From assembly GCA_963854835.1 (NCBI GenBank), contig OY978525.1:65711407-65775406 (forward strand): DNA of 64,000 nt, given 5' to 3'. Both the position numbers and the translations under genes were made by a program. Position 1 is the stretch's first letter, and every line of letters begins with the position of its first letter. The notes beneath the pieces were generated by a model. That model did no database searches. It was not told the origin of the DNA and saw only the letters and a list, made by a program, of their open reading frames with translations. The DNA comes from Megamerina dolium (Eukaryota > Arthropoda > Insecta > Diptera > Megamerinidae). Positions 31,660-59,372 of the stretch are shown here, in pieces.

Positions 31660-31801
31660 TTTTTTTTATTACAATCTATTTTCATAACATTCAGCAATAC
31701 TTAATTACTTAAAGTAAAAATAAACATAAGAATATGAATCACGTATAGATTACACCCAGTGGTGTAGGCATTTATTATTCTTCAACCATTAGAATTTGAC
31801 A
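31660..31801 (-). pseudogene. jockey relic 3' end, left of the Polinton
   Basis: On the minus strand, a stop after ILMVEE, about 120 bases of 3' UTR with AATAAA, and an eight-base A run at 31660-31667. Read together with 55992-56235 it is the 3' end of a jockey LINE into which the Polinton inserted. The six bases next to the Polinton are TTGACA. Confidence 0.65.
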
Positions 31802-32059
31802 AGTAGATATAATATGTAGGTTCTGGATCAGCTATCTAAACGTGTGTGTTAGAGTGAGACGGAAGATCGACATGTTTGAAGCTATCTTAGCTGTGTGTTA
31901 GAGGGAGACAGTAGATCGGCAGTGTGTGTGAGGGAGAGGGCATGTGTGTGTGTGAGGGAGGCGGCATGTGTGAAGCTATCTTCGCAGTGTGTAAGAGTGA
32001 GAAAGGCGTGGCACGGTGGCAGCTATCTTGATAGGTGTGTGAGGGGGAGATGGCATGAT

Positions 32060-32290
32060 GGGTGGGCGGAAGGGTGTGGAGGGGTGGCCTAGACGTGAGG
32101 AGTGGGGGCGTTGGGGTGGAGGGTGTGGAGGCGTGGCCTAGGTGTGAGGAGTGGGGGGCGTTGGGGCTGAGGGTGTGGAGGGGTGGCTTAGGTGTGAGGA
32201 GTGAGGGCGTTGGGACGGAGGGTCTGGTGGGGGTGGCTTAGGTGTGACGGCGTGGGTGGGCGGAGGGTGTGGCGGGGTGGCTTAGGGGTG
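32060..32290 (+). repeat. GC-rich minisatellite in left terminal repeat
   Basis: About four and a half tandem units of roughly 50 bases, each with GGTGGCCTAGGTGTGAGGAG and GCGTTGGGG-type parts. The mirror array lies at 55505-55740. Confidence 0.85.
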
Positions 32291-32382
32291 ATGATGATAT
32301 TGAATCGAGCTGTGCTACCAGGCTAGCATGATCGGTAGCAGGCAGATATGACTTGTAGCGGTTGATATAGTAAGTGCATATG

Positions 32383-32420
<38 letters not shown>

Positions 32421-32426
32421 TGTGTG

Positions 32427-33793
32427 TTTTTTATTTTTTTTTTTTTTGGATTCGAAGGGGGAATCTTTCTTAGATACCGTCCACCATAGACGGCATGTAC
32501 GATTCATACTGTCCGCTAAAGGTACACCTCATTCGGGACCACGCCCAGTCAGTAATATCTTACTATGCTGGACTTGCGAAACAGTACGCCTACGTACTAA
32601 ACCCTTAACTCCGACCTCTATAGCTTGTTTGTGTCCTGCGGGACCGCCGTTAAGCACTACTTCGCAGGACTAAGCTGAGCTAATATGCCTCTTCAAACAT
32701 CCCATACATGGCGTTCACACAGCTGCAGTTATATTTCTCCGCTGCCACTCCTTCTTCCTGAGCTCCTTGAGAGCTATTGCAGCCCATTCTTTCATCTTAA
32801 ACCACACTAAACTCGATCGCAGCATATGGCTCACAATGTTATCAGGTGTTATCCTTTCATTTATTATCTTCTCTATGGTCATTCTCTGCGTCTCAAATCT
32901 TAGGCAGAAGAAAAAGATATGCTGAGCGTTTTCGCCAACAGTGTTGCAGAATGAACATTCTGTCGCGTCATCATGACCGAATCTGTGGAGGTACTCTCTG
33001 AAACAACCATGGCCCGTCAAAAACTGCGTAAGGTAGAAGTCTGTCTCTCCGTGTCCTCTTTCGACCCAAGCTTGCACGTTTCTGATGAGCCTGTGGGTCC
33101 ACCTCCCTTTTCCTGCGGCGTCCCATTGACTTTGCCATTCATCTAGGCTCGTCTGTCTCTCCTCTTTCCGTTCGGTTGCCGTTAACCGCCTATTCAGGCT
33201 TTTGGTTCTGTTATATACTCTGCCCAACTCCGAGGCCATTATGTCCGGCGGCATAATGCCGGATATAATACCGGCACCTTCTTGTGACACTGTCCTAAAT
33301 GCACATGCAACTCTAATAGCGCTTAACCTGAAAACTATCTTCGCCTTCTTCGAGTATGTCTTTTGCCGCAGAGCTGCCCCCCATATAGGCGCCGCGTACA
33401 TCAATATTGATTGACTGACTTTAGCCAGGAGCGCTCTCCTACTCTGGCTGGGGCCACCAATGTTGGCCATGATTCTCGTCAGAGCCGCTGTCATTGTTGC
33501 CGCCTTCCCGCAGGCTTTTTCGATATGCGCCTTGAAGTTGAGCCTCGTATCAATCATTACACCTAGATATCTCAACGAAGGTTGCGTTGTAATGTTGTAG
33601 CCGTCAATGTTTAGGGTGATTTTTTCGAGTTTTTTCCTGCTCGTGATAAGTACAGCCTCTGTTTTCTGTACCGCAAGCTGGAGCTTTGTCGTCGTGAGCC
33701 AATCCTTAATTTTCGAAGCTGTCTCTCTGCAGATGCTCTGAACTTGGGAGAGCTCCTTCGCAACGATCGTCACGGCAATGTCGTCCGCGTAGC
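32427..33793 (-). mobile_element. R1-clade LINE (Waldo/Mino-like), 5' truncated, in (GT)n
   Basis: A non-LTR retrotransposon fragment flanked on both sides by (GT)n with TGTATG units. The A-rich tail is the complement of 32427-32447. The coding part starts at the RT active site (RYADDIAVTIV) and runs through the C-terminal domain to a cysteine-rich end. R1-clade families Waldo and Mino are known to insert into (ACAY)n or (AC)n repeats, which fits exactly. The mirror (AC)n tract in the right terminal repeat is uninterrupted, so the insertion came after the Polinton formed. Confidence 0.82.
32715..33793 (-). pseudogene. R1-type reverse transcriptase C-terminal part
   Basis: About 360 codons open from the RT catalytic motif YADD at the cut edge. 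Then come the thumb (SLRYLGVMIDTRLNFKAHIE), the conserved ILMYAAPIWGAAL segment and a C-terminal zinc-finger-like CSFCNTVGENAQHIFFFC. No fingers, no endonuclease and no ORF1. The reading frame continues into the microsatellite as an artefact (HTHTHT). Frame preservation over its whole length suggests a recent insertion. Confidence 0.85.
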
Positions 33794-34339
33794 GTGTGTG
33801 TGTGTGTGTATGTGTGTGTGCGTGTGTGTGTGTATGTATGATATGATATGATATTAGGTTGTAGCTAAATGCTTGACTCATATGTTGAATCGCTTAGGGT
33901 AGCTTATCAGCTATGCGAGCTATACGCTCAGTATAGCAAATACATGTACATGCGTTTGTGTATGGCTATAGCTTGTAGCTACATAGGCTACATATATTTT
34001 TTGTTGAAGTAGGTTTTTTTTTTCATTATTCATGTTGAATAGGTTAATGTATACAAATTATATTTGAATTACTTGTTTGCAATTGACTCATATGTTGAAT
34101 CGCTTAGGATAGCTTATCAGCTATGCGAGTTATGCGGTCGGTATAACCCACATATATATTAGACTATTTATAGCCTAATATATATGCAGCTAGCATGAGT
34201 ATCAAAAAATAATATGTTTTTTTTATTGAGGTAGGTTCTTCATATTTCTCATTATTCATGTTGAGGAGGTCAATGTATTCAAATTATATTTGAGTTACTT
34301 AATTGACAATTATTTTTTATTTCACACCTGACAATTGGA

Positions 34340-35412: not shown

Positions 35413-36053
35413 TTAAGTTATGACGAAACACAGTTCCCGGTGGGTTTTGACGCCTATAAATGGCGTAACACCAGCATTTATAAGCGCTTTTAATGGTTCG
35501 CTCATATTACTAAATCGGGGTGGTAAGAATACCACCCCGTCATTTAGACTTAACATAATTTTCGGCCCGTAGGCCGTTTGCTTCAATTCGCATTTGATTA
35601 TCTGATAGCCTTGATCGACTATCAGAGCATCAATGCGAATTATCGGGTTGCAGTTGTTTAATCTCTGTAATTCATTGGCCGCTTCCTGCGGCGTATATTT
35701 CACCCCCTCCTCCTCCTTTTCTTTCTGCTGCTGCTGCTGCTGCTGCTGTTGCTGATGCTGATGTTGTTGTTGTTGTTGTTGTTGCTGTTGCTGCTCTTCT
35801 TGTTGTTGCTGCTGCTGCTGCAGTTGTTGCTGTTGTTGTTGATGTTGCTGCTGCTGCTGCTGTTGTTGTTGCTGATGTTGTTGCTGCTGCGTGCCGCAGA
35901 TTATGTATCGCTGAGAGAAGGGTATCTCCTCATCATCTAAAATTTCCACAATGTTCTGTAATGAAAGTATATATAAATTATTAATATCATAAAACAATGA
36001 TTTTTTTTTTTTACAATAGAGAAATGTATACTTACATTATCGTTCCGGTTCAT
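35413..36053 (-). CDS. spliced polyglutamine protein of the Polinton, possible OB-fold
   Basis: Two exons. Exon 1 is 36036-36053 (MNRNDN) and exon 2 is 35413-35955. The 80-base intron (35956-36035) has GTAAGT and TTTCATTACAG. Splicing keeps the frame into NIVEILDDEEIPFSQRY. This choice replaces an unspliced start inside the intron at 35997. Next comes a glutamine-rich tract of about 60 residues coded by mixed CAG/CAA, a charged KEKEEEGV stretch and a C-terminal domain of about 105 residues. The last carries YQIIKCELKQTAYGPKIMLS and FLPPRFSNM. That strand-rich pattern resembles OB-fold nucleic-acid-binding proteins, which is an inference only. It is convergent with the two plus-strand genes on its left. 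Confidence 0.72.
35956..36035 (-). other. 80-bp spliceosomal intron
   Basis: On the minus strand the intron begins GTAAGT and ends CATTACAG after a T-rich tract. The joined exons stay in frame. A T run (about 36001-36012) precedes the acceptor region in the intron. Confidence 0.7.
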
Positions 36054-36671: not shown

Positions 36672-39320
36672 TTACAGCATATTCAGTGTGTCTTTTCTTT
36701 TTAATCGACGATGCCCCTTGCTCAGCAACAATTGCCTAGCAAGGGGATTCGGATGATTGTGTAATTTTTGAATGTAGCTTCTGCAGGACATTGCAACTTC
36801 CTCAGAAATTGTGGATACATTTAAATCTCGATGGATGTTAACGTTCCTCATATACCAAGGCGCATTTACAATAATTCGCAGACACTTGGATTGTATTCGC
36901 TGCAATTTTTCAATATTAGAGGGAGATGCGGTGCCCCAAAACTGAATACCATAAGTCCAGATTGGTTTCAGGATTGCTTTATATAATAGCACTTTGTATT
37001 CAAGATTCAACTTTGATCTTTTGTGTAACAGCCACCATAACTGATTCATTTTAAGCTTGATCTGAGTTTTCTTTGCCTCTATGTGATTTTTCCATGTCAG
37101 CCTTCTGTCGAGGTGAATACCCAAGTACTTTGTTGAGGAACATTGTGGAACTGATTGGCCATTAATTTTAAGTGGGGGACATGTATCTAGCCTTAGCGTG
37201 AAGGTTACATGTACGCTCTTTGATTCATTGACTTTTATACGCCATTTTGCTAGCCAGATTTCGAGAGAATCGACATGAGTCTGCAGGAGTTTAGTAGCTT
37301 CTATGGGGTTAGAGCGAGAGCACAATATTGCCGTATCATCAGCAAAGGTCGATATGAATGTATAGTTATTGTTGGGCATATCTGAAGTGTATAAGAGATA
37401 CAGTAAGGGACCCAAAACGCTTCCTTGAGGAACGCCAGCGTGAATATCCAATGGATTTGTTGTGTAATCCTTGTGATGTACGAGAAATTGTCTTTTCGTG
37501 AGGTAGCTACTAAGCAATGAGGAGACATTTGCAGGCAGTAATAGTTTGAGTTTGTAAATAAGGCCATCGTGCCATACTTTATCGAAAGCTTGAGTGATAT
37601 CAAGAAAGACAGCTGAGCAATACTTTTTTTCTTCAAAAGTGTTCCTTATCAGAGTTACAATGCGGTGGACTTGTTCTATTGTGCCGTGCTGTTTTCTAAA
37701 TCCAAACTGATGTTGAGGAATCAGTTGGTTGAGATTAATAAATGGAGTTATATTCATGACAAGTAGCTTTTCGAATACTTTAGAAAGTAGAGGCAGGAGG
37801 CTGATAGGTCTGTACGATGCAACTTTTGTAGGGTCTTTTCCTGGTTTTGCTATCATAATAATTTTTGAAGTTTTCCAGCATTTGGGATAGTGTTTAATAC
37901 GAAGGATAGCATTGAAAATGTGCATCAGATGAATTACTGAAGCCGGAGGTAGCTCTTTTATCATTTTACCGGTAATTTTATCTGGACCAGGTGATTTTTT
38001 TGGGTTTAAATCTTTATAAATTGCTTTGAATATGTCCTTTTTTTTAATTTTGAGCGTTATTGAGCAAGGTTGAGAAGTTAATATTGGTAATGAGGACTGT
38101 GAAGAGGGTGGATTGGGTGTAAACACACTTTTTAGGTGGTTTGCAAAAGCCAAACCCTTCTCACAGTTGCTTCTAGCCCAATTACCGTCACTCAAACGGA
38201 TGGGGGAATCAGTGAGAATTGGCCGATTTGATTTTTTTGCTGATTTCCACAAGGAGTAGTCTGACGCTTCACCAGGTGTTAATTTCGCTATGTGCTCTTC
38301 TAACTCTTTGTTGTTTTTATTTTTTAAGGCTTGCTTTAACTTTCGAGTGCAGTGCTGTAGCTGTGTTTTCAGATTCGGTGATCTGAATTCTTGCCATTGT
38401 CTTCGGAGTCTTCTTTTTTGTCTTACTAGCAATTCAATATCGGCTGGTGTGTATGGGCTATAGTTTGATTGCTTGCATACCTTTGTGCAGGTGGCTGAGC
38501 TGAGAGCTAATGAGAGCAGCTGGTTGAATTTTTCGAGTGCTGAGTCTACATCGTGTCCATTTCTTAATACAGTACTCAGAGGAAGATGGGAATTTATATA
38601 TTTCTTGAATTTTAACCAGTCTATTTTCTTTCTAACGCAATTGCTTTGGGGGCTTGGTGATTTTATAGATATTACCGTGGGTGAGTGGTCAGATGATAGA
38701 TCATAATTACACTCTGTGGAGATATTTTCCATCTGCAAACCTTTGGCGACTCCAAAGTCTATGAGATCGGGTATTTTCCTCTTGTCCGTCGGCCAATATG
38801 TCGGTTGACCATTTGAAATAACATCGTAGCCGTGGTTAGTGATGATTGAACATAGTCTTTTGCCTTTTGGAGTTATTAATCGGGAGCCCCAGTGAGTGTG
38901 TTTGGCGTTGAAATCGCCAGCAACCAAGAATTTGCTACCAAGAGTTGAGAAAAATTCTTTATATTGCTGTTCGGTAATACTGTATCTTGGGGGACAGTAT
39001 ATCGCAGATATTACTAGCTTAGAGATGTATTCTTCCAGACATATGGATGTTGCTTGCAAGTAGACGCTACTAAAATCTTCAAGAACATGATGTTTTATTC
39101 TGCTTTTTATCAATATGGCAGTTCCTCCGCGTGCCTTACCATGCGGATGATTTGTGGTGTACAGTTTGTAATATGGTATTTGGTAGCAATTTTTGTCAGT
39201 GAAATGGGTCTCAGATATCATCATTATGTCGATTTGGCTGGATTCAAGGAATTGAATTAGCTCCAAACGGTGCTGGCTTAAGCCGTTGGCGTTCCAGTGG
39301 CATATCTTGAGACAACTCAT
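36672..39320 (-). CDS. jockey ORF2: endonuclease and reverse transcriptase
   Basis: 882 residues, full length for jockey ORF2. The endonuclease (about 1-225) has ICHWNANGLS, ISETHF (Glu), VAGDFNAKHTHWGS and SSDHSPTV. The linker has RQKRRLRRQW. The reverse transcriptase (about 430-720) has SYRPISLLPLLSK, QHQFGFRKQHGT, AVFLDITQAFDKVW, GVPQGSVLGPLLYLLYTSD and FADDTAIL (catalytic Asp pair). The C-terminal domain has ILKPIWTYGIQFWG. The enzyme nicks chromosomal DNA and primes reverse transcription there. Its ATG overlaps the ORF1 stop (ATGA at 39317-39320), as in stop-and-restart translation. No disruption is seen, so this copy may be active. Confidence 0.95.
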   Translation of the reverse strand: MSCLKICHWNANGLSQHRLELIQFLESSQIDIMMISETHFTDKNCYQIPYYKLYTTNHPHGKARGGTAILIKSRIKHHVLEDFSSVYLQATSICLEEYISKLVISAIYCPPRYSITEQQYKEFFSTLGSKFLVAGDFNAKHTHWGSRLITPKGKRLCSIITNHGYDVISNGQPTYWPTDKRKIPDLIDFGVAKGLQMENISTECNYDLSSDHSPTVISIKSPSPQSNCVRKKIDWLKFKKYINSHLPLSTVLRNGHDVDSALEKFNQLLSLALSSATCTKVCKQSNYSPYTPADIELLVRQKRRLRRQWQEFRSPNLKTQLQHCTRKLKQALKNKNNKELEEHIAKLTPGEASDYSLWKSAKKSNRPILTDSPIRLSDGNWARSNCEKGLAFANHLKSVFTPNPPSSQSSLPILTSQPCSITLKIKKKDIFKAIYKDLNPKKSPGPDKITGKMIKELPPASVIHLMHIFNAILRIKHYPKCWKTSKIIMIAKPGKDPTKVASYRPISLLPLLSKVFEKLLVMNITPFINLNQLIPQHQFGFRKQHGTIEQVHRIVTLIRNTFEEKKYCSAVFLDITQAFDKVWHDGLIYKLKLLLPANVSSLLSSYLTKRQFLVHHKDYTTNPLDIHAGVPQGSVLGPLLYLLYTSDMPNNNYTFISTFADDTAILCSRSNPIEATKLLQTHVDSLEIWLAKWRIKVNESKSVHVTFTLRLDTCPPLKINGQSVPQCSSTKYLGIHLDRRLTWKNHIEAKKTQIKLKMNQLWWLLHKRSKLNLEYKVLLYKAILKPIWTYGIQFWGTASPSNIEKLQRIQSKCLRIIVNAPWYMRNVNIHRDLNVSTISEEVAMSCRSYIQKLHNHPNPLARQLLLSKGHRRLKRKDTLNML

Positions 39321-41029: not shown

Positions 41030-41560
41030 TTCGCGAACTGCGAACTCTTGAAATTATCTTTCCAATAAAATAATTTAATGAGTGAAATAAATGAAAAAAT
41101 AACTAAGTGAAGTGAATTATATATTCGTGCAGTGCAGTGATAACTTTTTGAATAAATAACTACTATAAATATATATATTTTCAAAAAACTGCACTCGAAA
41201 AAAATAAATCATTTAAATCGTGTATTCGAAAGTTTTTTAATTGTGGTAATAAGTTTTTGGATAATTATTATAAATACACATTCTAAAAATCTATACTCGA
41301 ATTCGTACTCATATGAATAAAAGTAAAAACTAATAAACAAAAATAGTGATATCTTACTCTAAGAGTAGCAGCAGCAGCAGTAGCAGAAATAAAAAATAGC
41401 AACTACATAATCATCACCATCATCATCATCATCATCAGCAACAATAGTAGCAACAACAGTAGCATCAGCAACAGCAGCAGCAGCAGTAGCAGCAGTAGCA
41501 GCAGCAGGAGCAATAATAATAGCAGTGAGAGCATCAGTAACAATTAAGTAATATTACCAA

Positions 41561-41638: not shown

Positions 41639-44600
41639 ATGTCGAAACGTAAAACAGTGCACTCAGCTTTCTTTTGTGAGGAATGTGATACATTTTTCTC
41701 TGCAAAGAGAAATTTGCAAGCACACATTAAACGGGTTCATTCACAAAAAAAGAAAGAATCCAATACTACATATTGCGATTTTTGTAAAAAAGATGTGATA
41801 ACTCGTAATTGGAGTTATCACATACATACGAATATTCATAAAAGAAATGCTTGCGAAATCGTTGATGGTAATGTGAAAGTTATTCAGTCAGCATTTAAAA
41901 ATAGGATAAAGACCCTTCAATTTAATAATGATGATGAGGGTGATTTAATCCCCGAAAAATTTATAGGGAAAATTTCGAATTGTATAGTTAGCGTTTTGAA
42001 AGAGTCTTTACTAAGTAATGACCCTTTCAAATATAATTTCGAATTGTTTGGAGAGTATGTAAAACCACCTCACGATATAGTGGAGGTTAAATCTTTTCAA
42101 ACAAATATGATACCCATACACACTATACACGAACTGGAGAGCTCACTAAACGATCATGTTGAAAAGATCAAAAATCAAATGAGTGAATTCCAGGAACGAG
42201 ATAGTGGGTGGGCCCTTCTTAAATTACTTCATTTGGAGGTTAATGTGAATAAGCTCGACATGATAAAAGGAAGTAGTTTCATACCTCTTCCTAAAAAATT
42301 GATGGAGAAAAAAGCATGTGTCAATGTTGAAAATGATGACATGTATTGCTTTAAATGGTCTATTATTGCATCTTTTGTGGATTCACCAATTAATTCGAAC
42401 CGTTGTTCGAATTATAATGTGAATATAAATGATGCAATAATATTTGTGAATGATCTAGAGTTAAACTTTAGCGGTATGGAGTTTCCTCTAGACTATAATG
42501 ATATCCACATTTTCGATGAACAAAATGCAGACATCAGCATATCTGTCTTTGGGTATAATGATGAAATTGGTGATGCTTTTGGTCCAATTTACTGGACAAA
42601 GGATTCACATAGAAAATTTCATATAAATCTTCTATTTATCCAAGATGAGTTAGCGGATAATTTCCATTATGTATGGATTAAGAATGTGTCGCGACTTTTC
42701 AGGTCAACGCTAACTCGCAATGAAAATTCCATTCATTTTTGTAATGTATGTTTACAACATTTTTCAAACGATGAAAAATATAGTCAACATATATCCAGGG
42801 AATGTAATCTTATGGTTACCAGAATGCCTGCTGAAGATAATAAATTTCTCGAATTTAACGGTATACATCATCAGATGGATGTACCTTTTGTAGTATATGC
42901 AGACTTTGAATGTGTATTGAAATCATGTGATGAACAGGTTTCCGAAAAAGTAAGGAACATTCAGGAGCATCTCGCCTGTGCATTTTCATATCAGATCGTA
43001 TGCAATTATAATCCGATATTGAGTAAAATGCGAACATATGTGGGTATGGATTCGTCCAAAATGTTTATTGAGATGTTAGTTGATGATCTCATCAAAATTT
43101 TTGATGATTGCATTAATGTTAAGATTCCGATGAATCCTCTATCTAATGGAGAGCGAGATTTTCATTTTTCATCTCCTATATGCCATATTTGTGAGAGGAA
43201 ATTCATTGAGAATGAAGGGCGTATAATGGATCATTGCCATTTAACCGGGAAATATCGTGGCCCAGCGCATAATGAATGCAATTTGAAATATAAAGTTCCG
43301 AAATTTTTCCCGGTGTTTTTCCATAACCTCTCGGGGTATGACATACATTTATTTATCAGAGAGCTTCAATATAAAAGTGGTTATGTTGATGTAATTGCTG
43401 TAAATAAAGAGAAGTATATTTCTATATCATTTAAACGTAGAAAGGAAAATGGTATAATGGAGATAAGATTTTTAGACTCATTCAGATTTATGGCTTCAAG
43501 TTTGGAGAAATTAGCAAAAAATCTCGATCCCTCAGATTTCCACATGGTTAGAGCAGTGCACCCTAATAATGAAGAATTCGATCTAATTCGACGTAAGGGT
43601 GTATATCCATATAACTATATACAAACGGAGGAAGTTTTACATGAGAAAAGTCTTCCACCAAGAGAAAAATTTTTTAATACTTTAACCGGTTCTCCGTGTT
43701 CTGAAGAGGAATATAATCATGCTAAAAAAGTGTGGATAACATTTAGCTGTTCTTCCTTGAAAGACTACATGGAAATCTATTTGAAATGTGATGTGCTACT
43801 ACTAACTGATATATTTGAAAATTTCAGGAAAAAATGTAGGAATGTGTATAAGCTTGATCCATGTCAATATTATACGGCCCCCGGTTTATCATGGGATGCA
43901 ATGTTGAAGCATACATCTATTTCATTAGAGCTATTCACTTCACATTCAATGCATCATTTTGTGCAGAAGGGGATTCGTGGTGGGATTTGCCAAGTGAGTA
44001 AAAGACACTCGAAGGCAAACAATAAGTATATGAATGATTTCAATCCATTGAAACCATCTGAATATTTAGTATATTTAGACGCCAATAATCTATATGGTTG
44101 GGCAATGTCACAATATCTACCAACAGATGGATTTGAATGGGTTGAAGACATTAACATTAAAGACATATTAGATGCATCTAGTGAATCATCCGTTGGATAC
44201 TTTTTAGAGGTAGATTTGAATTACCCTCTCCAGATGCATGAGCTGCATAACGATTTACCATTTTGTGTTGAAAATATGAACCCTCCAAATAACAGCAAAG
44301 TAACAAAATTAATTACAAATTTAGACAATAAATACAATTATGTAATACACTATAGGTTTCTACAACAGGCAATACAAAATGGTTTAGAGTTATCTAAAGT
44401 TCATAGGGTGTTAAAATTTAATCAATCTCCTTGGTTAAATCAGTATATCGATTTAAACAATCAACATCGCACCTTAGCTACATGCGAATTTGAAAAAAAT
44501 CTTTTCAAATTAATGAACAATGCTGTTTACGGTAAAACAATGGAAAACGTTGAAAAACGTAATGACATTAAAATTTCATCATCTTGGGAGAGTGTTCGGA

Positions 44601-45334
44601 AGAGAAAAGGAGTTAGAGCCCTAATAGCTAGTCCGAATTTTCACAGCATATCAATTTTTGATGAGAATATGTGTGCCATTCAAATGAATAAAATGCGAGT
44701 ATTATATGACAAACCGATATATCTGGGATTTGCAATTTTGGAATTATCAAAACTTAAAATGTATGTCTTTCACTACCAATATATGATTCCAAAATTTAAG
44801 CAAAATTTATCGCTATGTTATATGGATACCGATTCTTTTATTTATAATATTCGCACCGATGATTTTTATCAGGATATCAAAGATGATATTGATAGCAGAT
44901 TTGATACATCGGGCTATGCTATTGATAACCCCTTCAACATACCGCTGAAAAATAAAAAAAAATTAGGTATGATGAAGGATGAGAATAATGGGGCAATTAT
45001 ACGTGAATTTATTGGCCTACGCCCTAAAATGTATTCATTAGATGTAGTTAATTATAATGTTCAGAATAAAGTGAAGGGTATCCCCAAAAATATTTCATCG
45101 CGGTTAACCATCAACGATTTCGCAAGCATTTTATATAGTGGGGATATACTAACTCGTCCTATACATACAATAAGATCTATTCATCATAATTTGTATACAC
45201 GTGAAATGAATAAAATTGTCTTAACTTCAAATGATGATAAAAGAGAAATTCTACCCGATAACATTCACAAAAATGCACATGGTTATTACAACCTCAGTGA
45301 ATTTGTTGAATTGCTTAATAATTCCGATGAGTGA
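41639..45334 (+). CDS. Polinton protein-primed DNA polymerase B
   Basis: 1231 residues. Two N-terminal C2H2 zinc fingers (C13/C16/H29/H34 and C46/C49/H61/H67) and a third near 368-390. The 3'-5' exonuclease has ADFE (D422, E424), FHNLSGYD (D568) and YLKCD (D718). An inserted CHICERKF...DHCH zinc module (about 515-550) resembles endonuclease VII-like folds. The polymerase has motif A YLDANNLYG (D814), motif B KLMNNAVYGKTMEN (from K957) and motif C CYMDTDSF (D1063, D1065). This enzyme replicates the element from a protein primer. All catalytic residues expected of the family are present and the frame is intact. It stands alone on the plus strand and is convergent with the gene at 45537. Confidence 0.96.
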   Translation: MSKRKTVHSAFFCEECDTFFSAKRNLQAHIKRVHSQKKKESNTTYCDFCKKDVITRNWSYHIHTNIHKRNACEIVDGNVKVIQSAFKNRIKTLQFNNDDEGDLIPEKFIGKISNCIVSVLKESLLSNDPFKYNFELFGEYVKPPHDIVEVKSFQTNMIPIHTIHELESSLNDHVEKIKNQMSEFQERDSGWALLKLLHLEVNVNKLDMIKGSSFIPLPKKLMEKKACVNVENDDMYCFKWSIIASFVDSPINSNRCSNYNVNINDAIIFVNDLELNFSGMEFPLDYNDIHIFDEQNADISISVFGYNDEIGDAFGPIYWTKDSHRKFHINLLFIQDELADNFHYVWIKNVSRLFRSTLTRNENSIHFCNVCLQHFSNDEKYSQHISRECNLMVTRMPAEDNKFLEFNGIHHQMDVPFVVYADFECVLKSCDEQVSEKVRNIQEHLACAFSYQIVCNYNPILSKMRTYVGMDSSKMFIEMLVDDLIKIFDDCINVKIPMNPLSNGERDFHFSSPICHICERKFIENEGRIMDHCHLTGKYRGPAHNECNLKYKVPKFFPVFFHNLSGYDIHLFIRELQYKSGYVDVIAVNKEKYISISFKRRKENGIMEIRFLDSFRFMASSLEKLAKNLDPSDFHMVRAVHPNNEEFDLIRRKGVYPYNYIQTEEVLHEKSLPPREKFFNTLTGSPCSEEEYNHAKKVWITFSCSSLKDYMEIYLKCDVLLLTDIFENFRKKCRNVYKLDPCQYYTAPGLSWDAMLKHTSISLELFTSHSMHHFVQKGIRGGICQVSKRHSKANNKYMNDFNPLKPSEYLVYLDANNLYGWAMSQYLPTDGFEWVEDINIKDILDASSESSVGYFLEVDLNYPLQMHELHNDLPFCVENMNPPNNSKVTKLITNLDNKYNYVIHYRFLQQAIQNGLELSKVHRVLKFNQSPWLNQYIDLNNQHRTLATCEFEKNLFKLMNNAVYGKTMENVEKRNDIKISSSWESVRKRKGVRALIASPNFHSISIFDENMCAIQMNKMRVLYDKPIYLGFAILELSKLKMYVFHYQYMIPKFKQNLSLCYMDTDSFIYNIRTDDFYQDIKDDIDSRFDTSGYAIDNPFNIPLKNKKKLGMMKDENNGAIIREFIGLRPKMYSLDVVNYNVQNKVKGIPKNISSRLTINDFASILYSGDILTRPIHTIRSIHHNLYTREMNKIVLTSNDDKREILPDNIHKNAHGYYNLSEFVELLNNSDE

Positions 45335-46118: not shown

Positions 46119-47707
46119 TTAAATAATTTTCTTAATTTCTCCAGTCATGGGGTTATAGCTAATAACCCGATCATGTATGAGAAGGGCATAAGCAGAAGTA
46201 TTGGCAGGAATGTTTTTCAATGTCTTGAAAATTACCTTCACATCAATTGGTCCACTTTTCATTGATTCATTTTGATGTGTTAAATCAATTATTATGATTG
46301 GAGCAATTGATTTAAATTTACTGGGGGTTAATAAAGGTTGCATATTTCTTAGGTAGTATTCCTTTTGTGGGTGCCGTAGCTCAGTGGTTAGTGTGTTCGC
46401 CTTCTGATCTGTAGGTCGTGGTTCAATACCCGGCTGATGCATAACAAATTTAATATCGAAAAGATTTTTCTTTCGAACGGTACCCACCTGTCGGCAAGCA
46501 ATTGGCAATTCTTCCGACAGTAACAACTTGCCATGAAAAAGCTTCTAAAAAGAACTCTGTGACAAAGCTCAGAAAAAGTGATGTCACAAGTGTTCTGCCG
46601 TTCGGAACCGGCTAAAATAAGTAGGTCCATTCTAATACTGTCCAAAATTTAGGACGCACAACAGTAATGGAAGAGAAGCTCGGCCAATGAGCCCTTTGGG
46701 GCTTTAAGTGCCACATATTTATTTTTTTTTTATTCCTTTTGAAATTTGCAATACATATCATATAGGAGTGCTAAACGACCATTTTCGATTTTAAGGTTCA
46801 ACTCATCATAGGGATAAACTTCAGAATTTAGATGAACTTTTACATCGGTGAGATCACAATGAACGAATTTTCTAGAGTTCTGAAATCCGATTAGCATGAA
46901 TCGTGGTCGTTCACTTTGTACAGCCAATTTAACATTCCATAGATGATTTGTAGTCTGTGATAGTGTTGGATTAAAATGCATATCCCAACAACGAAATGCC
47001 ATTGGTATAGACACTCCTCTTCGAATATTATTGTAAATATTTAATTTAGTTGAGTCTGCTAATTGAATATGTGGCATTTTCCATATTAAATTAACTATAG
47101 TTAACACAATTTTATCATTCTCAGCAGCTACAGAGGAGAAGGCTATACCTTCATCAGTTTTTGATCGAAGAAGTATTAGTTCATGCTTTGCATTTAATAT
47201 CACCTTATTATAATCTTCGGCAAAACCCAAAAGATGTTTTAAAGGTATGCAAAAATTAAATTGTCCATTGGTTATTTCAATGTCATCAGAAACACTCCAA
47301 CCAGCATTCATCATCACTGTACTCTCATTAGGTGAGAGAGAGGCAAAAGCCTTCATTGTAGTTGCAATCCCTAAATGTCGGGTTCGATCAATTTCAATCC
47401 CATTCATTTCATAACGAATTTCATCGAATAAATATGATACGCAGTTATTCCGCATTTTTATATTATGAGAGATAGTCTGTCCATTCAGTGTGGCAGTTCC
47501 TTCAATATAGATCATACTTTCCGAAGGTAGAATGTAGAGGTCTTGATTCTGAATAGGTATTCTAATTTCATCATTATTTTTATATGATTGTTGATACGCC
47601 GAATAACTGTGGTAATCCTTCTTAATGATGCTCTCATCATAAAGGGGTTGTTGCATAATATTAAGTACATCAGTTGACGTCATTTGAAACGTTTTTCCTT
47701 CTTGCAC
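46119..47707 (-). pseudogene. Polinton major capsid protein (double jelly-roll), split by SINE
   Basis: The hexon-like major capsid gene in two parts: 46731-47707 (about 325 codons) and 46119-46367 (about 83 codons), with a SINE between. Recognisable segments are YIEGTATLNG and LFDEIRYEMNGIEIDRT (first jelly roll), LNAKHELILLRS, LWNVKLAVQSERPRFMLIGF and CDLTDVKVHLNSEVYPYDELN (second roll). In the second part they are VIFKTLKNIPANTSAYALLI and a short C-terminus. The combined length, about 408, suits insect Polinton capsids. The two parts share a frame once the 374 inserted bases are discounted, so the SINE is the only visible lesion. As it stands the protein would end early, inside the SINE tail. 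Confidence 0.9.
46368..46730 (+). repeat. tRNA-derived SINE in the capsid gene
   Basis: A complete copy with the exact target duplication TATTCCTTTTG at 46357-46367 and 46731-46741. It begins TGGGTGCCGTAGCTCAGTGG (box A) with GGTTCAATACC (box B), and ends in a T run. It is nearly identical to the copy at 24998, so both are young. Confidence 0.95.
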
Positions 47708-48670: not shown

Positions 48671-49591
48671 TCATACAATATCGCTCTTATTTATCCATGA
48701 ATTATGCTCTTTAGAGAATCCGAGCCATTTAATATAGGCTTTATCACCTGTAGTTTTTATAATTTTCTCAATTAAATACATATCAGGGTATTTCGTCTTC
48801 ATAAGCTCATATTCATAAAACCCCCCTTTTATAGGATTTCCTTGATAGTCTTCCAGTATATATGTTGTTGGATTAGTTTTTTGAATTTGCTTAATTTTAA
48901 ATATCTCAGTAGTCCAATTCGGTGTATACCCCTTCTCAAAAGCATGCTTATATTTACTTATTCGAACATTTGACCCCACAGTGAATTTAGATCGATGAAA
49001 GACCTTCAAATGGTTATATACAGTTTCTAGAAGATCTTTCTCATTCGACGAATTTACATCAACCGGTGCCATTTTTATCGTTTTATGTATTTTATGATTA
49101 TATTCATCAACCAATTTTTGATAATTATTAATCCATCGATATGATCCATTATAGCTAAACTCCTTCCACATCATACCCTTTAATGTTCGATTAAAGCGTT
49201 CAACTATTGACGCCTTTAGCGGACTAAATGTTGAGTAATGATTAATGTTATGCTCATCCATCAATTTTTTAAAATGTTTATTGAAAAATTCTTTTCCATC
49301 ATCAGTTTGAAGATTTTTCGGTATTCGTCGATCATTCTCAAATATATTCTTCATGGCCTGTGTTACATGGTCGGCACTTTTTGTTTTAATCGCTATTGCC
49401 CAGGCGAATTTCGAGAAAGTGTCAATAATTGTTAGAAGGAATCGATATCCACGATTTAATGCTGTGTATGCACCCATTTTAACTAAATCCGCCTGCCACA
49501 AGTCATCAATACCTTTAGTAATTACTCGTCGGCGATTAAAATTTTTGCGAGCTTGTCGATGAAGCTCTTCAACTAAATCTCGTTTACTCAT
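48671..49591 (-). CDS. Polinton integrase with C-terminal chromodomain
   Basis: 306 residues of retroviral-type integrase. The catalytic triad is D35 in LWQADLVKMG, D97 in LQTDDGKEF and E131 in SIVERFNRTLKG. An IDTFSKFAWA strand lies between the first two. After the core come NVRISKYKHAFEKGYTPNWT and a chromodomain at about 272-306 (YIKWLGFSKEHNSWI), probably directing integration to marked chromatin. It inserts the element's ends, making short target duplications. Its start overlaps the preceding gene by four bases (ATGA at 49588-49591), a sign of one transcript. An N-terminal zinc-binding HHCC is only partly present. Intact. Confidence 0.95.
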   Translation of the reverse strand: MSKRDLVEELHRQARKNFNRRRVITKGIDDLWQADLVKMGAYTALNRGYRFLLTIIDTFSKFAWAIAIKTKSADHVTQAMKNIFENDRRIPKNLQTDDGKEFFNKHFKKLMDEHNINHYSTFSPLKASIVERFNRTLKGMMWKEFSYNGSYRWINNYQKLVDEYNHKIHKTIKMAPVDVNSSNEKDLLETVYNHLKVFHRSKFTVGSNVRISKYKHAFEKGYTPNWTTEIFKIKQIQKTNPTTYILEDYQGNPIKGGFYEYELMKTKYPDMYLIEKIIKTTGDKAYIKWLGFSKEHNSWINKSDIV

Positions 49592-51166: not shown

Positions 51167-51844
51167 TTATAAATATATCGAACCCTTCCTATAACGTCCA
51201 TCAGCAATTGGATCATCTTTAGATATTACGAGAAATCCATATTTATCACACCAGCATTCTTTACACATCTCATGAAACTGCTCATATGTAAGATCAGTTC
51301 CAACATGATCATTATACACATGCTTAATATTTAACTCATCTTGCTTAAACATTATTATTAAGTTAGCATTATCACGAATTAAATGCTTTGGAATGCGTGT
51401 ATATGTTTGACATAAATAGAAGCTATCAATTTTATTATGACGACCCATGCAGAAATATACTCGAATATTATTTTGTTTTTCACACGCGACATCATCAAAT
51501 ATCATAATGGAATTTTTTCTGGCTTCATTTGGTGGTATAACTTCCTCATTCTCTGAGAATGTGAAAAACCCCATCCCTTTTATGGGGGCGAGTAACTTCT
51601 TCAAATACTGATATTTCGGTTGATTAAGTGATTTCCCATAAATATAAATATTTTCAAATTTTAATCCATTCGGACTTTCAATTAAACTTATCATAACATT
51701 AGTTTTCCCACAATTCGATGGTCCGATAATTAAACATCTGATTGTATTCGGTAGTAGGAGTCCATGACGACGTTTTAAAGTATCATTTGTTTTAAAGTCT
51801 AAATTCCTGACAACAATTTTTTTATCCTGTCTTATGAACTTCAT
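51167..51844 (-). CDS. Polinton genome-packaging ATPase (FtsK/HerA, A32-like)
   Basis: 225 residues. Walker A GPSNCGKT (41-48) and Walker B SIMIFDD (112-118), followed by a QTYTRIPKHLIRDNANLII region with polar residues typical of this ATPase group. The enzyme pumps DNA into preformed capsids in related viruses. The gene heads the minus-strand late-type block and is divergent from the PLA2-domain gene 101 bases away, so 51845-51945 should hold promoters for both. Intact. Confidence 0.94.
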   Translation of the reverse strand: MKFIRQDKKIVVRNLDFKTNDTLKRRHGLLLPNTIRCLIIGPSNCGKTNVMISLIESPNGLKFENIYIYGKSLNQPKYQYLKKLLAPIKGMGFFTFSENEEVIPPNEARKNSIMIFDDVACEKQNNIRVYFCMGRHNKIDSFYLCQTYTRIPKHLIRDNANLIIMFKQDELNIKHVYNDHVGTDLTYEQFHEMCKECWCDKYGFLVISKDDPIADGRYRKGSIYL

Positions 51845-51945: not shown

Positions 51946-52779
51946 ATGGGTTTATTAATTAAAAAAGGTCTCAGTCATAAAAAACAACTTCATGGTGGTG
52001 GACTTGTTGATGGGATAATTAATTCTTTACCAATTGAATTACATTTACCTGGCTATCAATTTTGCGGTCCTGGTACTAAGCTTAAAAAGCGTTTAAATAG
52101 AGGTGATAAGGGTGTAAATCCATTAGATGCTGCTTGTAGAGAGCACGATATTGCATATTCACAAAACAAAGACTTAGATAGAAGACACATTGCTGATAAA
52201 CAACTTGTTGAAAGAGCTTGGCAAAGAGTAACTTCAAAGGATAGTAGCATCGGTGAGAAGGCAAGTGCTTGGCTTGTGACAAACGCGATGAAATCTAAAG
52301 TTAAATTCGGAATGGGTAATAACATTACGAAGACGAGACGGAAACGAAAATGTGTAAAAAGTAAATGTCCTAAAAAATTATTTACAACTGCCCTTGTGAA
52401 GGCGCGCAAAATTTTGAAACGTCAGATGCCTGATAGTGTTGAAAAAGCTGTGAAAATCGCACATAAAGTAATCAGTAATACATTTAGGGGGAATAAAGAG
52501 AATATCAATATTCCTAGAGTCATACAAATCCCCAAGGTTGGGGGATTTCTCCCCTTGGTACCAATCCTAACCGCATTGGGTGCACTTGGTGGTCTAGCAT
52601 CTGGAGGATCGGCTATCGTTAAGGCTGTGAACAGCGCTAAAGCAGCTAGAGAGCAGTTGGATGAAGCAAACCGTCATAATAAGACAATGGAAGCGATTGC
52701 TATGGGAAAAGGTTTATATTTGAAGCCATATCGGAAGGGGTACGGCTTCTTTTATCGGCCACAAGCAAAAAACTTTTAA
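51946..52779 (+). CDS. Polinton virion protein with PLA2 domain and pVI-like tail
   Basis: 277 residues. The N-terminal domain has the parvovirus-type phospholipase A2 signature: calcium loop YQFCGPG (37-43) and catalytic helix DAACREHDIAY with H67 and D68. After a basic middle (KTRRKRKCVKSKC) comes a C-terminal part with a hydrophobic LVPILTALGALGGLASGGSA, a helix, RHNKTME and the closing GKGLYLKPYRKGYGF. That layout recalls adenovirus-type minor core or membrane-active proteins. A role in crossing membranes during entry is inferred from the families. It is followed after two bases by the protease gene. Intact. Confidence 0.88.
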   Translation: MGLLIKKGLSHKKQLHGGGLVDGIINSLPIELHLPGYQFCGPGTKLKKRLNRGDKGVNPLDAACREHDIAYSQNKDLDRRHIADKQLVERAWQRVTSKDSSIGEKASAWLVTNAMKSKVKFGMGNNITKTRRKRKCVKSKCPKKLFTTALVKARKILKRQMPDSVEKAVKIAHKVISNTFRGNKENINIPRVIQIPKVGGFLPLVPILTALGALGGLASGGSAIVKAVNSAKAAREQLDEANRHNKTMEAIAMGKGLYLKPYRKGYGFFYRPQAKNF

Positions 52780-52781
52780 GT

Positions 52782-53138
52782 ATGCTACCCAAGAGAGCGC
52801 TCACCGATGTTGACATTATAAAATTCGCGAAATATATACCACACTTTCGCGGAGTATTCATGCGTGATACTCTTCCACGAAAACCTCATGTGATCGAGTG
52901 CGGAATTGTGAACCTTGATAGTATACAAATCAGTGGAACACATTGGGTAGCATACTATAAAAATAAAAGTCATATTGAATATTATGATAGCTTCGGAAAT
53001 TTACCTCCACCAAAAGAACTGATAAAATATTTGGGGACAAACATCAACTATAATTATAAACGTTATCAGAAATTCAATACATACACTTGTGGTCATCTAT
53101 GTCTAAAAATTTTATATCAACTTTCTCACACTTTTTAA
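52782..53138 (+). CDS. adenain-like cysteine protease of the Polinton
   Basis: 118 residues of Ulp1/adenain-type protease. The catalytic set is H54 (SGTHWVAYY), D69 (EYYDSFG), Q96 (KRYQ) and C103 (YTCGHLCLK), in the usual order and spacing. It processes virion precursors in adenoviruses and relatives. The protein is short compared with adenain, as is common in Polintons. The start lies two bases after the stop of the PLA2-domain gene, suggesting one transcript. Intact. Confidence 0.92.
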   Translation: MLPKRALTDVDIIKFAKYIPHFRGVFMRDTLPRKPHVIECGIVNLDSIQISGTHWVAYYKNKSHIEYYDSFGNLPPPKELIKYLGTNINYNYKRYQKFNTYTCGHLCLKILYQLSHTF

Positions 53139-53195: not shown

Positions 53196-53534
53196 TTATT
53201 TATTTATTTTTATATAAGTAGTTGCATTATCTAAAACATTTAGAGCTTCGGTATATTTTAATTCTTTAAAAATAAATTGCAATTTTTCAAAGGCATCAGG
53301 TCCTCGATGGGTTATCTTTGTGAATAGTTCCGCATGAAGCCTGCTTTCTCTATTATATTTGTCAACATCATCATCATCAAAGATGTTGGGAGATAATCTA
53401 TATTGTATTATATCTAGCATGCGCTGTGTTATGAGGTTGTTTTCCACACATTTATTCGAAAGTTCTTTATAATTTGTTAGCCGGATTAATTGTCCAATAT
53501 TTCTTAAAATGATCTCTCGGTGTATATCGTCCAT
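53196..53534 (-). CDS. CARD-only protein resembling the Dronc caspase CARD
   Basis: 112 residues, almost entirely one caspase recruitment domain (about 5-101). Visible signatures are HREIILRNIGQL, LTNYKELSNKCV, LITQRML and FTKITHRGPDAF, then helices to NVLD. They match the CARD of the insect initiator caspase Dronc position by position in my memory, notably HRE, TNY..L...CV, L.T..ML and KIT.RGP.A. No caspase catalytic domain follows; the stop is 11 codons after the domain. CARDs pair with like domains; in flies the Dronc CARD binds Dark. A free CARD could act as a decoy against apoptosis, by analogy with mammalian CARD-only proteins. That role is inference. It lies in the accessory right end, convergent with the protease gene, and intact. 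Codons are as AT-rich as its neighbours. Confidence 0.85.
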   Translation of the reverse strand: MDDIHREIILRNIGQLIRLTNYKELSNKCVENNLITQRMLDIIQYRLSPNIFDDDDVDKYNRESRLHAELFTKITHRGPDAFEKLQFIFKELKYTEALNVLDNATTYIKINK

Positions 53535-53591: not shown

Positions 53592-53792
53592 CTAATTCTT
53601 CAATCTTTTATACGGAACATTTGATGTACTATACTTTTCTGCATCCTCTTCCTCAGTGTTTAGCTCCTTCGAATTTGACTGGACTTCATACTGCTTTCTC
53701 TTCGCAGCAGTATCTTCCTTTTTTATGTGGCCATATTTATTACTACCACCGCTACTATTACTATCGAATGAAGTATTTAGATTAGAATCCAT
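53592..53792 (-). CDS. short Ser/Asn/Glu-rich protein, unknown
   Basis: 66 residues of low-complexity composition: a Ser/Asn-rich start, KKEDTAAKRKQY, an acidic NTEEEDAEK and a basic end VPYKRLKN that could be a nuclear localisation signal. It lies 57 bases upstream of the CARD gene on the same strand. No family was recognised. It could be an N-terminal exon or a separate accessory protein. Moderate doubt that it is a real gene. Confidence 0.45.
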   Translation of the reverse strand: MDSNLNTSFDSNSSGGSNKYGHIKKEDTAAKRKQYEVQSNSKELNTEEEDAEKYSTSNVPYKRLKN

Positions 53793-54077: not shown

Positions 54078-54692
54078 TTAGAATATTGACATTGTATACA
54101 GATGTTCAATAGGTTGCACATTTAAGATTTCAATATCAGATCTATAGTTTTCATCAGAATAACGAACTAATGCAACTTCACCATCAATAAGCTGTTCAGT
54201 TACTTCACGATATTCACTACATCGAATACTCATACTTCGTTTCTCGTAGTTTGAATCATAGGTGCATCGAATTGTTATGTATGTACCGGAATCATAAAGT
54301 AGTTTAAAATGTCTGTAGAAAGGACGCTCACTTTGAATTATACCATTAATTTCTTGCTCTTTATGTATCAAATCTTGCCTGAATGCTTCAATAGCTTCAG
54401 TCACGGTGAAAAAATGTTTTGTCACCCCCTCCGTACTTGAAATTGATGGTGTCGTTTTAGTAGGTTCATCGCTAAATACTCTATCCTCATTTTTCGCAGT
54501 ACTAAGCATAGAAAAAGCTATGTCGATGTCGACCACCTCATCATTTGGTAGAGTCAAACGAAATCCATATTTTCCCTTTCTTCCACCATCTGATGTAGAC
54601 ACCAAATTTATTGGTATTCGCTCTGCTGAAAGTATTTGCTTATACATTAAAGCAAATAAACTCAGCCAGGTGTATATCTTCATAAATCTCAT
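54078..54692 (-). CDS. secreted or membrane-lumenal accessory protein, unknown
   Basis: 204 residues with a clear N-terminal signal peptide (about 1-23: basic MRFMK start, hydrophobic IYTWLSLFALM, likely cleavage after ILSA). The mature part is strand-rich, with KYGFRLTLPNDEVVDIDIAF, a Ser/Thr-rich hinge near 75-90, and HFKLLYDSGTYITIRCTYDS with two conserved-looking cysteines (about 141 and 155). No transmembrane helix follows. The family is not recognised. It is the outermost gene at the right end, next to the CARD gene, so a host-interaction role is a reasonable guess only. Confidence 0.7.
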   Translation of the reverse strand: MRFMKIYTWLSLFALMYKQILSAERIPINLVSTSDGGRKGKYGFRLTLPNDEVVDIDIAFSMLSTAKNEDRVFSDEPTKTTPSISSTEGVTKHFFTVTEAIEAFRQDLIHKEQEINGIIQSERPFYRHFKLLYDSGTYITIRCTYDSNYEKRSMSIRCSEYREVTEQLIDGEVALVRYSDENYRSDIEILNVQPIEHLYTMSIF

Positions 54693-55214: not shown

Positions 55215-55363
55215 CTGTGTGGCTACAAGCTATAGCCATACACAAACGCATGTACATGTATTTGCTATACTGAGCGTATAGCTCGCATAGCTGATAAGCT
55301 ACCCCAAGCGATTCAACATATGAGTCAAGCATTTAGCTACAACTTAATATCATATCATATCAT

Positions 55364-55422
<59 letters not shown>

Positions 55423-55991
55423 TATGCACTTACTATATCAACCGCTACAAGTCATATCTGCCTGCTACCGATCATGCTAGCCTGGTAGCACAGCTCGATT
55501 CAATATCATCATCACGCCTAAGCCACCCCGCCACACCCTCCGCCCACCCACGCCGTCACACCTAAGCCACCCCCACCAGACCCTCCGTCCCAACGCCCTC
55601 ACTCCTCACACCTAAGCCACCCCTCCACACCCTCAGCCCCAACGCCCCCCACTCCTCACACCTAGGCCACGCCTCCACACCCTCCGCCCCAACGCCCCCA
55701 CTCCTCACATCTAGGCCACCCTTCCGCCCACCCATCATGCCATCTCCCCCTCACACACCTATCAAGATAGCTGCCACCGTGCCACGCCTTTCTCACTCTT
55801 ACACACTGCGAAGATAGCTTCACACATGCCGCCTCCCTCACACACACACATGCCCTCTCCCTCACACACACTGCCGATCTACTGTCTCCCTCTAACACAC
55901 AGCTAAGATAGCTTCAAACATGTCGATCTTCCGTCTCACTCTAACACACACGTTTAGATAGCTGATCCAGAACCTACATATTATATCTACT
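55215..55991 (-). repeat. right terminal inverted repeat of the Polinton
   Basis: Complement of the left terminal repeat, ending ...TTATATCTACT. It contains an uninterrupted (AC)n tract at about 55366-55424, the counterpart of the tract holding the R1-type insertion on the left, and the minisatellite at 55505-55740. One nine-base difference and scattered changes separate the two ends. Inward of 55215 (to about 55090), similarity to the left end continues in rearranged order. Confidence 0.92.
55505..55740 (-). repeat. GC-rich minisatellite in right terminal repeat
   Basis: Mirror of 32060-32290, with about four and a half units of roughly 50 bases. The open frames across it are composition artefacts. 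Confidence 0.85.
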
Positions 55992-56235
55992 TTGCTTTTT
56001 GATTATTTCAGCAACCGTTGGGACTTTCAAATCACGATGGAATTGGTTGTTTGTGACATAATATGGGGCATTTGCAATCATACGTGACATTGGATGTTGC
56101 CGCAGTATCCCACAGCTGTGTGCTATATGTGCATATTTGTTTAAGGACAGCTGAGTAGAATAAGAGTGCACTCTCGAGTGAGACTTGGAAATTTCGATTT
56201 AGCAACCAGTGCAAATTTCTGAGTTTGATGCCAGA
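55992..56235 (-). pseudogene. jockey relic, RT C-terminal domain, right of the Polinton
   Basis: In shifting minus frames: LRNLHWLLNRNFQVSLESAL, LFYSAVLKQICTYSTQLWDT, MIANAPYYVTNNQFHRDLKV and VAEIIKKQ, the usual end of a jockey polyprotein. The frame runs to the Polinton border. On the far side (31795 downwards) it would continue for six codons to a stop and a 3' UTR. It is more diverged than the other jockey copies. Confidence 0.8.
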
Positions 56236-57564: not shown

Positions 57565-57658
57565 CGGATAAAAGTCTTTCTTGATAGCCGTCCTTCGGCC
57601 GGGCGCAAACAAAATAACCCTTAGAGGCCCGACGCCGGCTTCACGACTATCAATACTT
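57565..57658 (-). repeat. single inverted monomer of the 94-bp satellite
   Basis: On the minus strand it matches one unit of the array at 58913-59372 with about a dozen differences, including the GGGCCTCTAAGGGTTATTTT and GCGCCCGGCCGAAGG parts. Confidence 0.85.
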
Positions 57659-58912: not shown

Positions 58913-59372
58913 TTTGTTGCGAAGCTGGCGTCGGGCCTGTAAGGGTTATTTTTTTGTGCCCGGCCGATGGCCGACTATCAAAAAAGCTTTTATCCTAAAA
59001 TACTGTTGGTCGCGAAGCCGGCGTCGGGCCTATAAGGGTTATTTTTTTTGCGCCCGGCCAAAGGCCGGCTATCAAAAAAGCTTTTGTCATAAAATACTGT
59101 TGGTCGCGAAGCCGGCGTCGGGCCTATAAGGGTTATTTTTTTTGCGCCCGGCCGAAGGCTGGCTATCAAAAAAGCTTTTGTCATAAAATCTGTTGGTCGC
59201 GAAGCCGGCGTAGGGCCTATAAGAGTTATTTTTTTTGCGCCCGGCCAAAGTCCGGCTATCAAAAAAGCTTTTATCCTAAAATACTGCTGGTCGCGAAGCC
59301 GGCGTCGGGCCTATAAGGGTTATTTTTGTTGCGCCCGGCCGAAGGCCGGCTATCAAAAAAGCTTTTGTAATG
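58913..59372 (+). repeat. tandem satellite, five units of 93-94 bp
   Basis: Five head-to-tail units, judged from the AAAAAAGCTTTT positions at 58987, 59080, 59174, 59267 and 59361 (spacing 93, 94, 93, 94). Each has CGCGAAGCCGGCGTCGGGCC, a GGGTTATTTT run, and the near-palindrome CCGGCCGAAGGCCGG. Because the period is close to 31 codons, open frames give false protein repeats. Confidence 0.95.

Follow-up and report, generated by a model that had tools for sequence, protein, structure and literature searches.

We analysed a 64,000-nucleotide stretch of the genome of the fly Megamerina dolium (contig OY978525.1; hereafter the window), in which a Polinton carries a gene for a caspase recruitment domain (CARD). 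The gene (53196–53534, minus strand) encodes a CARD of the type found in the initiator caspase Dronc, and its product of 112 residues is CARD-only; the assignment is based on matches to Dronc CARDs in the PDB, a six-helix structural model and the pattern of selection among copies. Judged from sequence, the gene is most simply a captured CARD of fly Dronc, and we consider it rather likely that this CARD was retained and acts as a decoy of the Dark–Dronc platform.

A Dronc-type CARD and its origin

An earlier note on this DNA had described a 112-residue product with the sequence pattern of a Dronc CARD, recognised by eye, and both points hold under computation. The frame, on the minus strand, is uninterrupted for 112 residues from an ATG at 53534 to a stop codon at 53196–53198. 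A phmmer search of the PDB with the Polinton protein places two Dronc CARD entries at the top (8y6q, E = 3.5e-9; 3j9k, E = 7.2e-8), with the next row at E = 0.086. Local alignment scores are 180 against the Dronc of the same genome (host Dronc) and 123 against Drosophila melanogaster Dronc, compared with best scores of 56 and 54, respectively, in 2000 shuffles, and the motifs HRE, TNY..L...CV and KIT.RGP.A are present in the computed alignment. Together, the PDB E-values and the shuffle test rule out chance or artefact. Derivation from the CARD of Dark rather than that of Dronc was also rejected, as Dronc supplies the sole CARD entries among PDB sequence matches up to E = 10. The Pfam CARD profile scores the Polinton protein below its cut-off (13.3 bits, E = 0.088; cut-off 23.9 bits); the host Dronc CARD likewise falls below it, but closer (21.3 bits, E = 0.00028).

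Structure prediction yields a six-helix bundle of the death fold, with the Dronc CARD among the tied best structural matches; Foldseek alone gives no match at E ≤ 0.001 in PDB or BFVD. The structural match covers model residues 3–106, and the protein is a single CARD with no other domain. A protease domain is absent, as had been claimed, since the frame stops a few residues past the CARD, and the Polinton protein is for this reason not a Dronc. It shares with Dronc the CARD sequence and fold, the N-terminal Met-Asp-Asp..Arg-Glu of host Dronc, the equivalent of Lys78 and the RGP.A motif. It differs in being borne by a mobile element without a caspase domain, in having Ala-Glu for Arg-Arg in helix 4, and in an Asp-rich loop of varying length between helices 3 and 4. 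This loop is encoded by a stretch of GAT repeats (window 53364–53378), the length of which differs among copies.

In the same genome, the search with the CARD turned up a single Dronc gene. Its CARD lies at G000:C4:26891280-26891582, and the caspase frame behind it contains the motif PFCRG (Pfam caspase domain, E = 4.2e-35); the host Dronc CARD matches PDB Dronc at E = 6.6e-20. A second CARD-family match (L064) was discarded as, by eye, a mariner-like transposase frame, and a host Dark gene was not found in the genome by NB-ARC or CARD family searches. In host Dronc, the CARD and the following linker form one open frame; the Polinton protein shares the initial Met-Asp-Asp and extends as far as this linker region, which argues for capture of a piece of Dronc. 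Capture of part of a fly Dronc gene is thus the simplest reading; the earlier note had proposed a host exon. The comparison draws on two Dronc CARDs (host and D. melanogaster), with identities of 41/107 between Polinton CARD and host, 34/107 between Polinton CARD and D. melanogaster, and 49/110 between host and D. melanogaster. The Polinton CARD has 13 residues in common with host Dronc only and 8 with D. melanogaster Dronc only, which leans slightly towards the host without being decisive. The donor may have been either the Dronc of the host's own lineage or that of an older or different fly.

Copies in the genome and selection on the gene

Searching 500 Mb with the CARD returned at least 94 matching stretches, host Dronc included; this is a lower bound because the search scores best candidates only, and some copies yield two or more stretches. 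Many copies have stops, and 28 of the 94 stretches span at least 105 of the 112 residues without one; the frame is thus not absent or broken in all sibling elements, an outcome that the earlier note had named as fatal to its reading. The 20 best copies are stop-free. In the window, the gene lies between an adenain-like protease gene (52782–53138) and a gene at 54078–54692. All 20 best copies have the protease adjoining the CARD, and their fetched flanks contain at least part of a phospholipase-like gene in 19 and at least part of the 54078–54692 gene in 15. In 34 of 39 further distinct loci (L023–L062, with L062 being part of L025), part or all of the protease is present, the flanks in many of these covering only 150–350 bases. 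L025 is rearranged, its protease piece falling within the CARD match, and L022 has only the CARD end left, beside a protease. The adjacency of CARD and protease in copies on several contigs rejects the reading that the CARD gene belongs to the host and happens to lie close to a Polinton.

The copies form two CARD-bearing lineages, A (window-like) and B (older and decayed). One contig, C6 (63 Mb, ∼13% of the assembly), holds 69 of the 94 CARD-matching stretches, many of them decayed, and may represent a sex chromosome or a heterochromatin-rich one.

Groups A, A1, A3, and B used for the selection analysis were drawn from the copy tree by the analyst, who likewise chose the thresholds for calling a difference fixed. 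The counts leave out L029 (in neither group), L062, four loci in which under 70 of the 103 codons could be compared (L022, L033, L044, and L061) and codons 51–59 of the Asp-rich loop. Nucleotide differences fixed between the 34 distinct A sequences and the 12 from B comprise 17 synonymous and 21 non-synonymous changes, whereas changes seen in single copies comprise 56 synonymous and 213 non-synonymous ones, plus 17 to stop (fixed vs single-copy: Fisher p = 0.0014, omega ∼0.4). The youngest A group differs from older A copies by 5 synonymous and 2 non-synonymous changes, and A1 differs from middle A copies, an overlapping comparison, by 3 and 0. Across 23 disjoint copy pairs, 89.5 synonymous and 254.5 non-synonymous changes were counted, against a neutral expectation of 83.7 synonymous (p = 0.23).

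The dN/dS comparison suggested earlier thus finds constraint between lineages and none among tip pairs, and a constraint acting across all copies is rejected. Individual copies drift after insertion, and purifying selection acted while the element was active. Because fixed differences are constrained and tip changes neutral, the gene appears to have been needed during element activity. Between the window and single B copies, CARD omega is 0.35–0.70; for the protease, omega between the window and L029 plus six B copies (L023, L024, L026, L027, L030, and L045) is 0.16–0.53, and on these ranges the protease is under the tighter constraint. The B copies and L029 agree with the window at 259 of 299 positions shared with Dronc and at 499 of 835 others, a gap that may be slightly widened by the anchoring of the alignments on conserved residues.

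Proposed role and alternatives

In the mechanism we propose, a Dronc CARD of a fly would have been captured into a Polinton lineage, between the protease and the 54078–54692 gene, and retained for its benefit to the element. The CARD-only protein would join the CARDs of Dark (or Dronc) without supplying a protease, so that assembly of the Dark–Dronc apoptosome would be blocked or dampened and the infected or replicating cell spared early death. Of the 49 residues conserved in both Dronc CARDs, the Polinton CARD keeps 26, including the Lys78 equivalent and RGP.A, and loses 23. According to PMC5313150, mono-ubiquitylation of Lys78 in D. melanogaster Dronc hinders apoptosome entry, and Lys78 bonds to Gln81, which is itself required for contact with Dark. 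The Lys78 equivalent is residue 73 of the Polinton CARD and is retained in 43 of 43 A copies and 11 of 12 B/L029 copies.

Helix 4 has lost two arginines present in both Dronc CARDs, and we therefore favour, as a prediction, a capping decoy over a simple full mimic: one face would bind, and CARD assembly could not continue. The broader proposal that once- or still-infectious fly Polintons captured the CARD of the host initiator caspase and reshaped it so that it caps and inhibits the Dark apoptosome is put forward tentatively, as plausible but somewhat short of probable.

Several observations weigh against a decoy of the Dark–Dronc platform. The position of Gln81 is occupied by His in the Polinton CARD and by Arg in host Dronc. 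The helix-4 pair Arg73-Arg74, found in both Dronc CARDs, has become Ala-Glu in almost every Polinton copy (Ala at the first position in 41/42 A and 12/13 B/L029 copies; Glu at the second in 39/42 and 12/13), a change that argues against an unaltered replica of the Dronc binding surface. Arg56 of human caspase-9, a helix-4 arginine, is one that we presume, from an alignment of our own that was not computed, to sit at the Dronc arginine pair. Mutation of Arg13 or Arg56 in caspase-9 is reported to prevent binding to the Apaf-1 CARD (PMC11755718). The selection test comprises 38 fixed sites with analyst-set groups and thresholds, the constraint it detects is moderate (omega ∼0.4), many copies contain stops, and the absence of the CARD from other Polinton lineages could reflect loss.

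Part of this evidence would suit a CARD that has been redirected to another death-fold or Dronc-CARD-binding partner and serves another step of the element's life, without engaging Dark–Dronc. The replacement of Arg-Arg by Ala-Glu is common to both lineages, hence old and kept, nearly half of the Dronc-conserved residues (23/49) are lost, and the Dronc CARD is known to have non-apoptotic partners, e.g. Crinkled (PMC4792956). Retention of the other 26, with the Lys78 equivalent and RGP.A among them, argues against such a redirection, and none of the searches made indicates another partner; we regard it as unlikely.

The history of the gene was examined through related Polintons. A protease search of the genome gave 136 matches, including families at ∼58–67% identity, and ten loci from these families were examined for a CARD. 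None was found in the ten with a profile built from Polinton and Dronc CARDs (best hit 5.0 bits, E = 1.6, 16 residues), whereas the same profile gave 90 and 101 bits on two decayed B copies outside the profile. The whole CARD interval is visible in five of the ten loci (L065–L067, near-copies of one another, L069, and L070), in which a relative of the 54078–54692 gene (∼33–47% identity to the window gene) lies past the protease; its presence there in CARD-less lineages indicates that this gene belongs to a wider family. From protease to this gene, the interval is 642 bases in L066 versus 939 in the window. The other five loci are less informative: the relative was not seen in them, and L072–L074 have retroelement frames, by eye, in this stretch. 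CARD-bearing and CARD-less loci split with a support of 0.995 in a protease tree rooted by midpoint only, and the CARD-less loci fall into two groups.

A single gain of the CARD on the branch leading to A and B would be the simplest history. The two CARD-less groups on a midpoint-rooted tree, and the visibility of the whole interval in only five of ten loci, would also accommodate a CARD that predates A and B, inherited from the common ancestor of all these Polintons and lost outside A and B. We consider this improbable, as in loci of the C lineage the protease and its neighbour are arranged as in the window but stand closer together, with no trace of a CARD.

The gene might also be a passenger, a captured host fragment without importance carried along by a successful element. 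Neutral tip changes, the stops in many copies and a constraint weaker than that of the neighbouring protease are compatible with this. The selection pattern makes it quite improbable: fixed between-lineage differences are constrained (p = 0.0014), changes between younger and older A copies are mostly synonymous (5 vs 2), Dronc-shared residues are better retained than others, and the 20 best copies are free of stops. Least probable, and in our view very much so, is a protein that promotes Dronc activation or death (e.g. by seeding Dark–Dronc assembly), perhaps for particle release: seeding and capping are both open in principle to a Dronc CARD, and the sequence does not favour either, but this one has no protease domain, and a viral CARD-only protein, GIV-CARD of grouper iridovirus, is reported to inhibit apoptosis (PMC4457926).

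The element and comparable CARD proteins

The Polinton spans 31801–55992 and is bounded by terminal inverted repeats (31801–32427 vs 55376–55992, 97.4%; 33794–33986 vs 55215–55407, 96.9%). These long repeats, a retrovirus-like integrase, a double jelly-roll (DJR) capsid and a packaging ATPase are the hallmarks of Polintons found here. The earlier note had placed the CARD gene inside a Polinton between an adenain-like protease gene and a signal-peptide gene; the location is upheld, and for the second neighbour the feature seen is a hydrophobic N-terminus. The protease gene, on the plus strand, is convergent with the CARD gene, with 57 bp between them, and has weak Pfam matches, both sub-threshold (Peptidase_C48, 17.2 bits; C5, 15.1 bits). 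The 54078–54692 gene, upstream of the CARD gene on the minus strand, is recognised from its frame and from its relatives in CARD-less lineages, and matches neither a Pfam family above cut-off nor any PHROGs family. Between the two lies a small minus-strand frame of 66 residues (53592–53792).

Other genes include a phospholipase A2-like, virion-type protein (51946–52779, plus strand; Pfam Phospholip_A2_4, E = 1.3e-15), the packaging-type ATPase (51167–51844, minus strand; Pox_A32, E = 1.4e-6) and the retrovirus-like integrase with a chromodomain-like end (48671–49591, minus strand; rve, E = 2.6e-14; Chromo, 0.0073, sub-threshold). The DJR capsid gene (46119–47707, minus strand) is present as two separate frames, both matching Pfam DJR-like_dom (46730–47707, E = 1.7e-95; 46119–46526, E = 2.3e-22), and is probably interrupted in the window copy; the second frame starts with residues resembling, by eye, another repeat's reading frame. 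A large frame of 1231 residues (41639–45334, plus strand) is assigned to PolB by position and motifs seen by eye; among Pfam families it matches Endonuclease_7 and a zinc finger only, with no polymerase match. Among 120 of the 1457 capsid matches, named relatives come mostly from calliphorid and muscid flies (Calliphora, Lucilia, Stomoxys, Haematobia, and Musca), with others from a moth, Hermetia, Glossina, and Drosophila.

The element also contains retroelement frames: a long interspersed nuclear element (LINE) with reverse transcriptase at 36672–39320, and two frames recognised by eye, one gag-like and extending to 40930, the other resembling reverse transcriptase and spanning the left repeat at 32715–33881. 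CTG/CAG-type repeat runs flank the LINE insertion (35710–35828 and 41392–41510) and are mutually inverted, with 72% complementarity over 119 bases. By eye, the ends of the window copy (31795–31800, 55993–55998) lack an exact 6-bp target site duplication, which could reflect recombination between copies. Outside the Polinton, a 94-bp unit forms a tandem array of nearly five copies (58919–59368), with an inverted relative at 57571–57658.

Among known proteins, GIV-CARD of a ranavirus is, like the Polinton CARD, free-standing and ∼100 residues long; PMC4457926 compares it with human ICEBERG, whereas the Polinton CARD is Dronc-like and belongs to an insect Polinton. A BFVD structure search with the Polinton CARD is headed by E10 of Equine herpesvirus 2, also a virus-encoded CARD protein, but at 311 residues longer than a lone CARD and a weak match (E = 0.65); the CARD of Lymphocystis disease virus 3 matches weakly as well (E = 1.9). 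Mammalian CARD-only proteins likewise consist of one CARD with no effector domain, but are host-encoded and treated, in the titles and abstract starts of reviews (PMC7555848, PMC3775265), as inflammasome regulators. Adintoviruses and Polintons described with anti-apoptotic genes are also virus-like elements with an integrase, but the main text of the paper describing them has no word beginning with "card".

No free-standing CARD relative was found in a protein collection, either with the single protein or with the A1 alignment, among proteins of 0.55–1.75 times the query length, a range that excludes full-length caspases and in a collection where small mobile-element frames are often unannotated. 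No relative emerged from IMG/VR either, whether scanned with the CARD, the capsid, the integrase, or the A1 alignment. The earlier note knew of no CARD gene described in a Polinton; in the literature on Polintons, adintoviruses, and Dronc, with most subscription papers outside the scope, no title or abstract start among the matches listed describes one, nor a Dronc-derived viral CARD. Viral CARD-only proteins are already known, however; the Polinton CARD resembles one, and an inhibitory role is predicted for it.

A retained, captured cell-death gene is expected of a virus and would hardly be needed by a pure transposon. If the proposed role is true, the Polinton protein would be an insect counterpart to the CARD-only proteins of mammals and viruses, and it would show directly that a Polinton counters host cell death. 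It would link Polintons to the fly apoptosome in a way that is open to test, and may provide a natural CARD that uses just part of the Dronc surface. A Dronc-like CARD kept by selection in part of a Polinton family suggests interference with host cell suicide.
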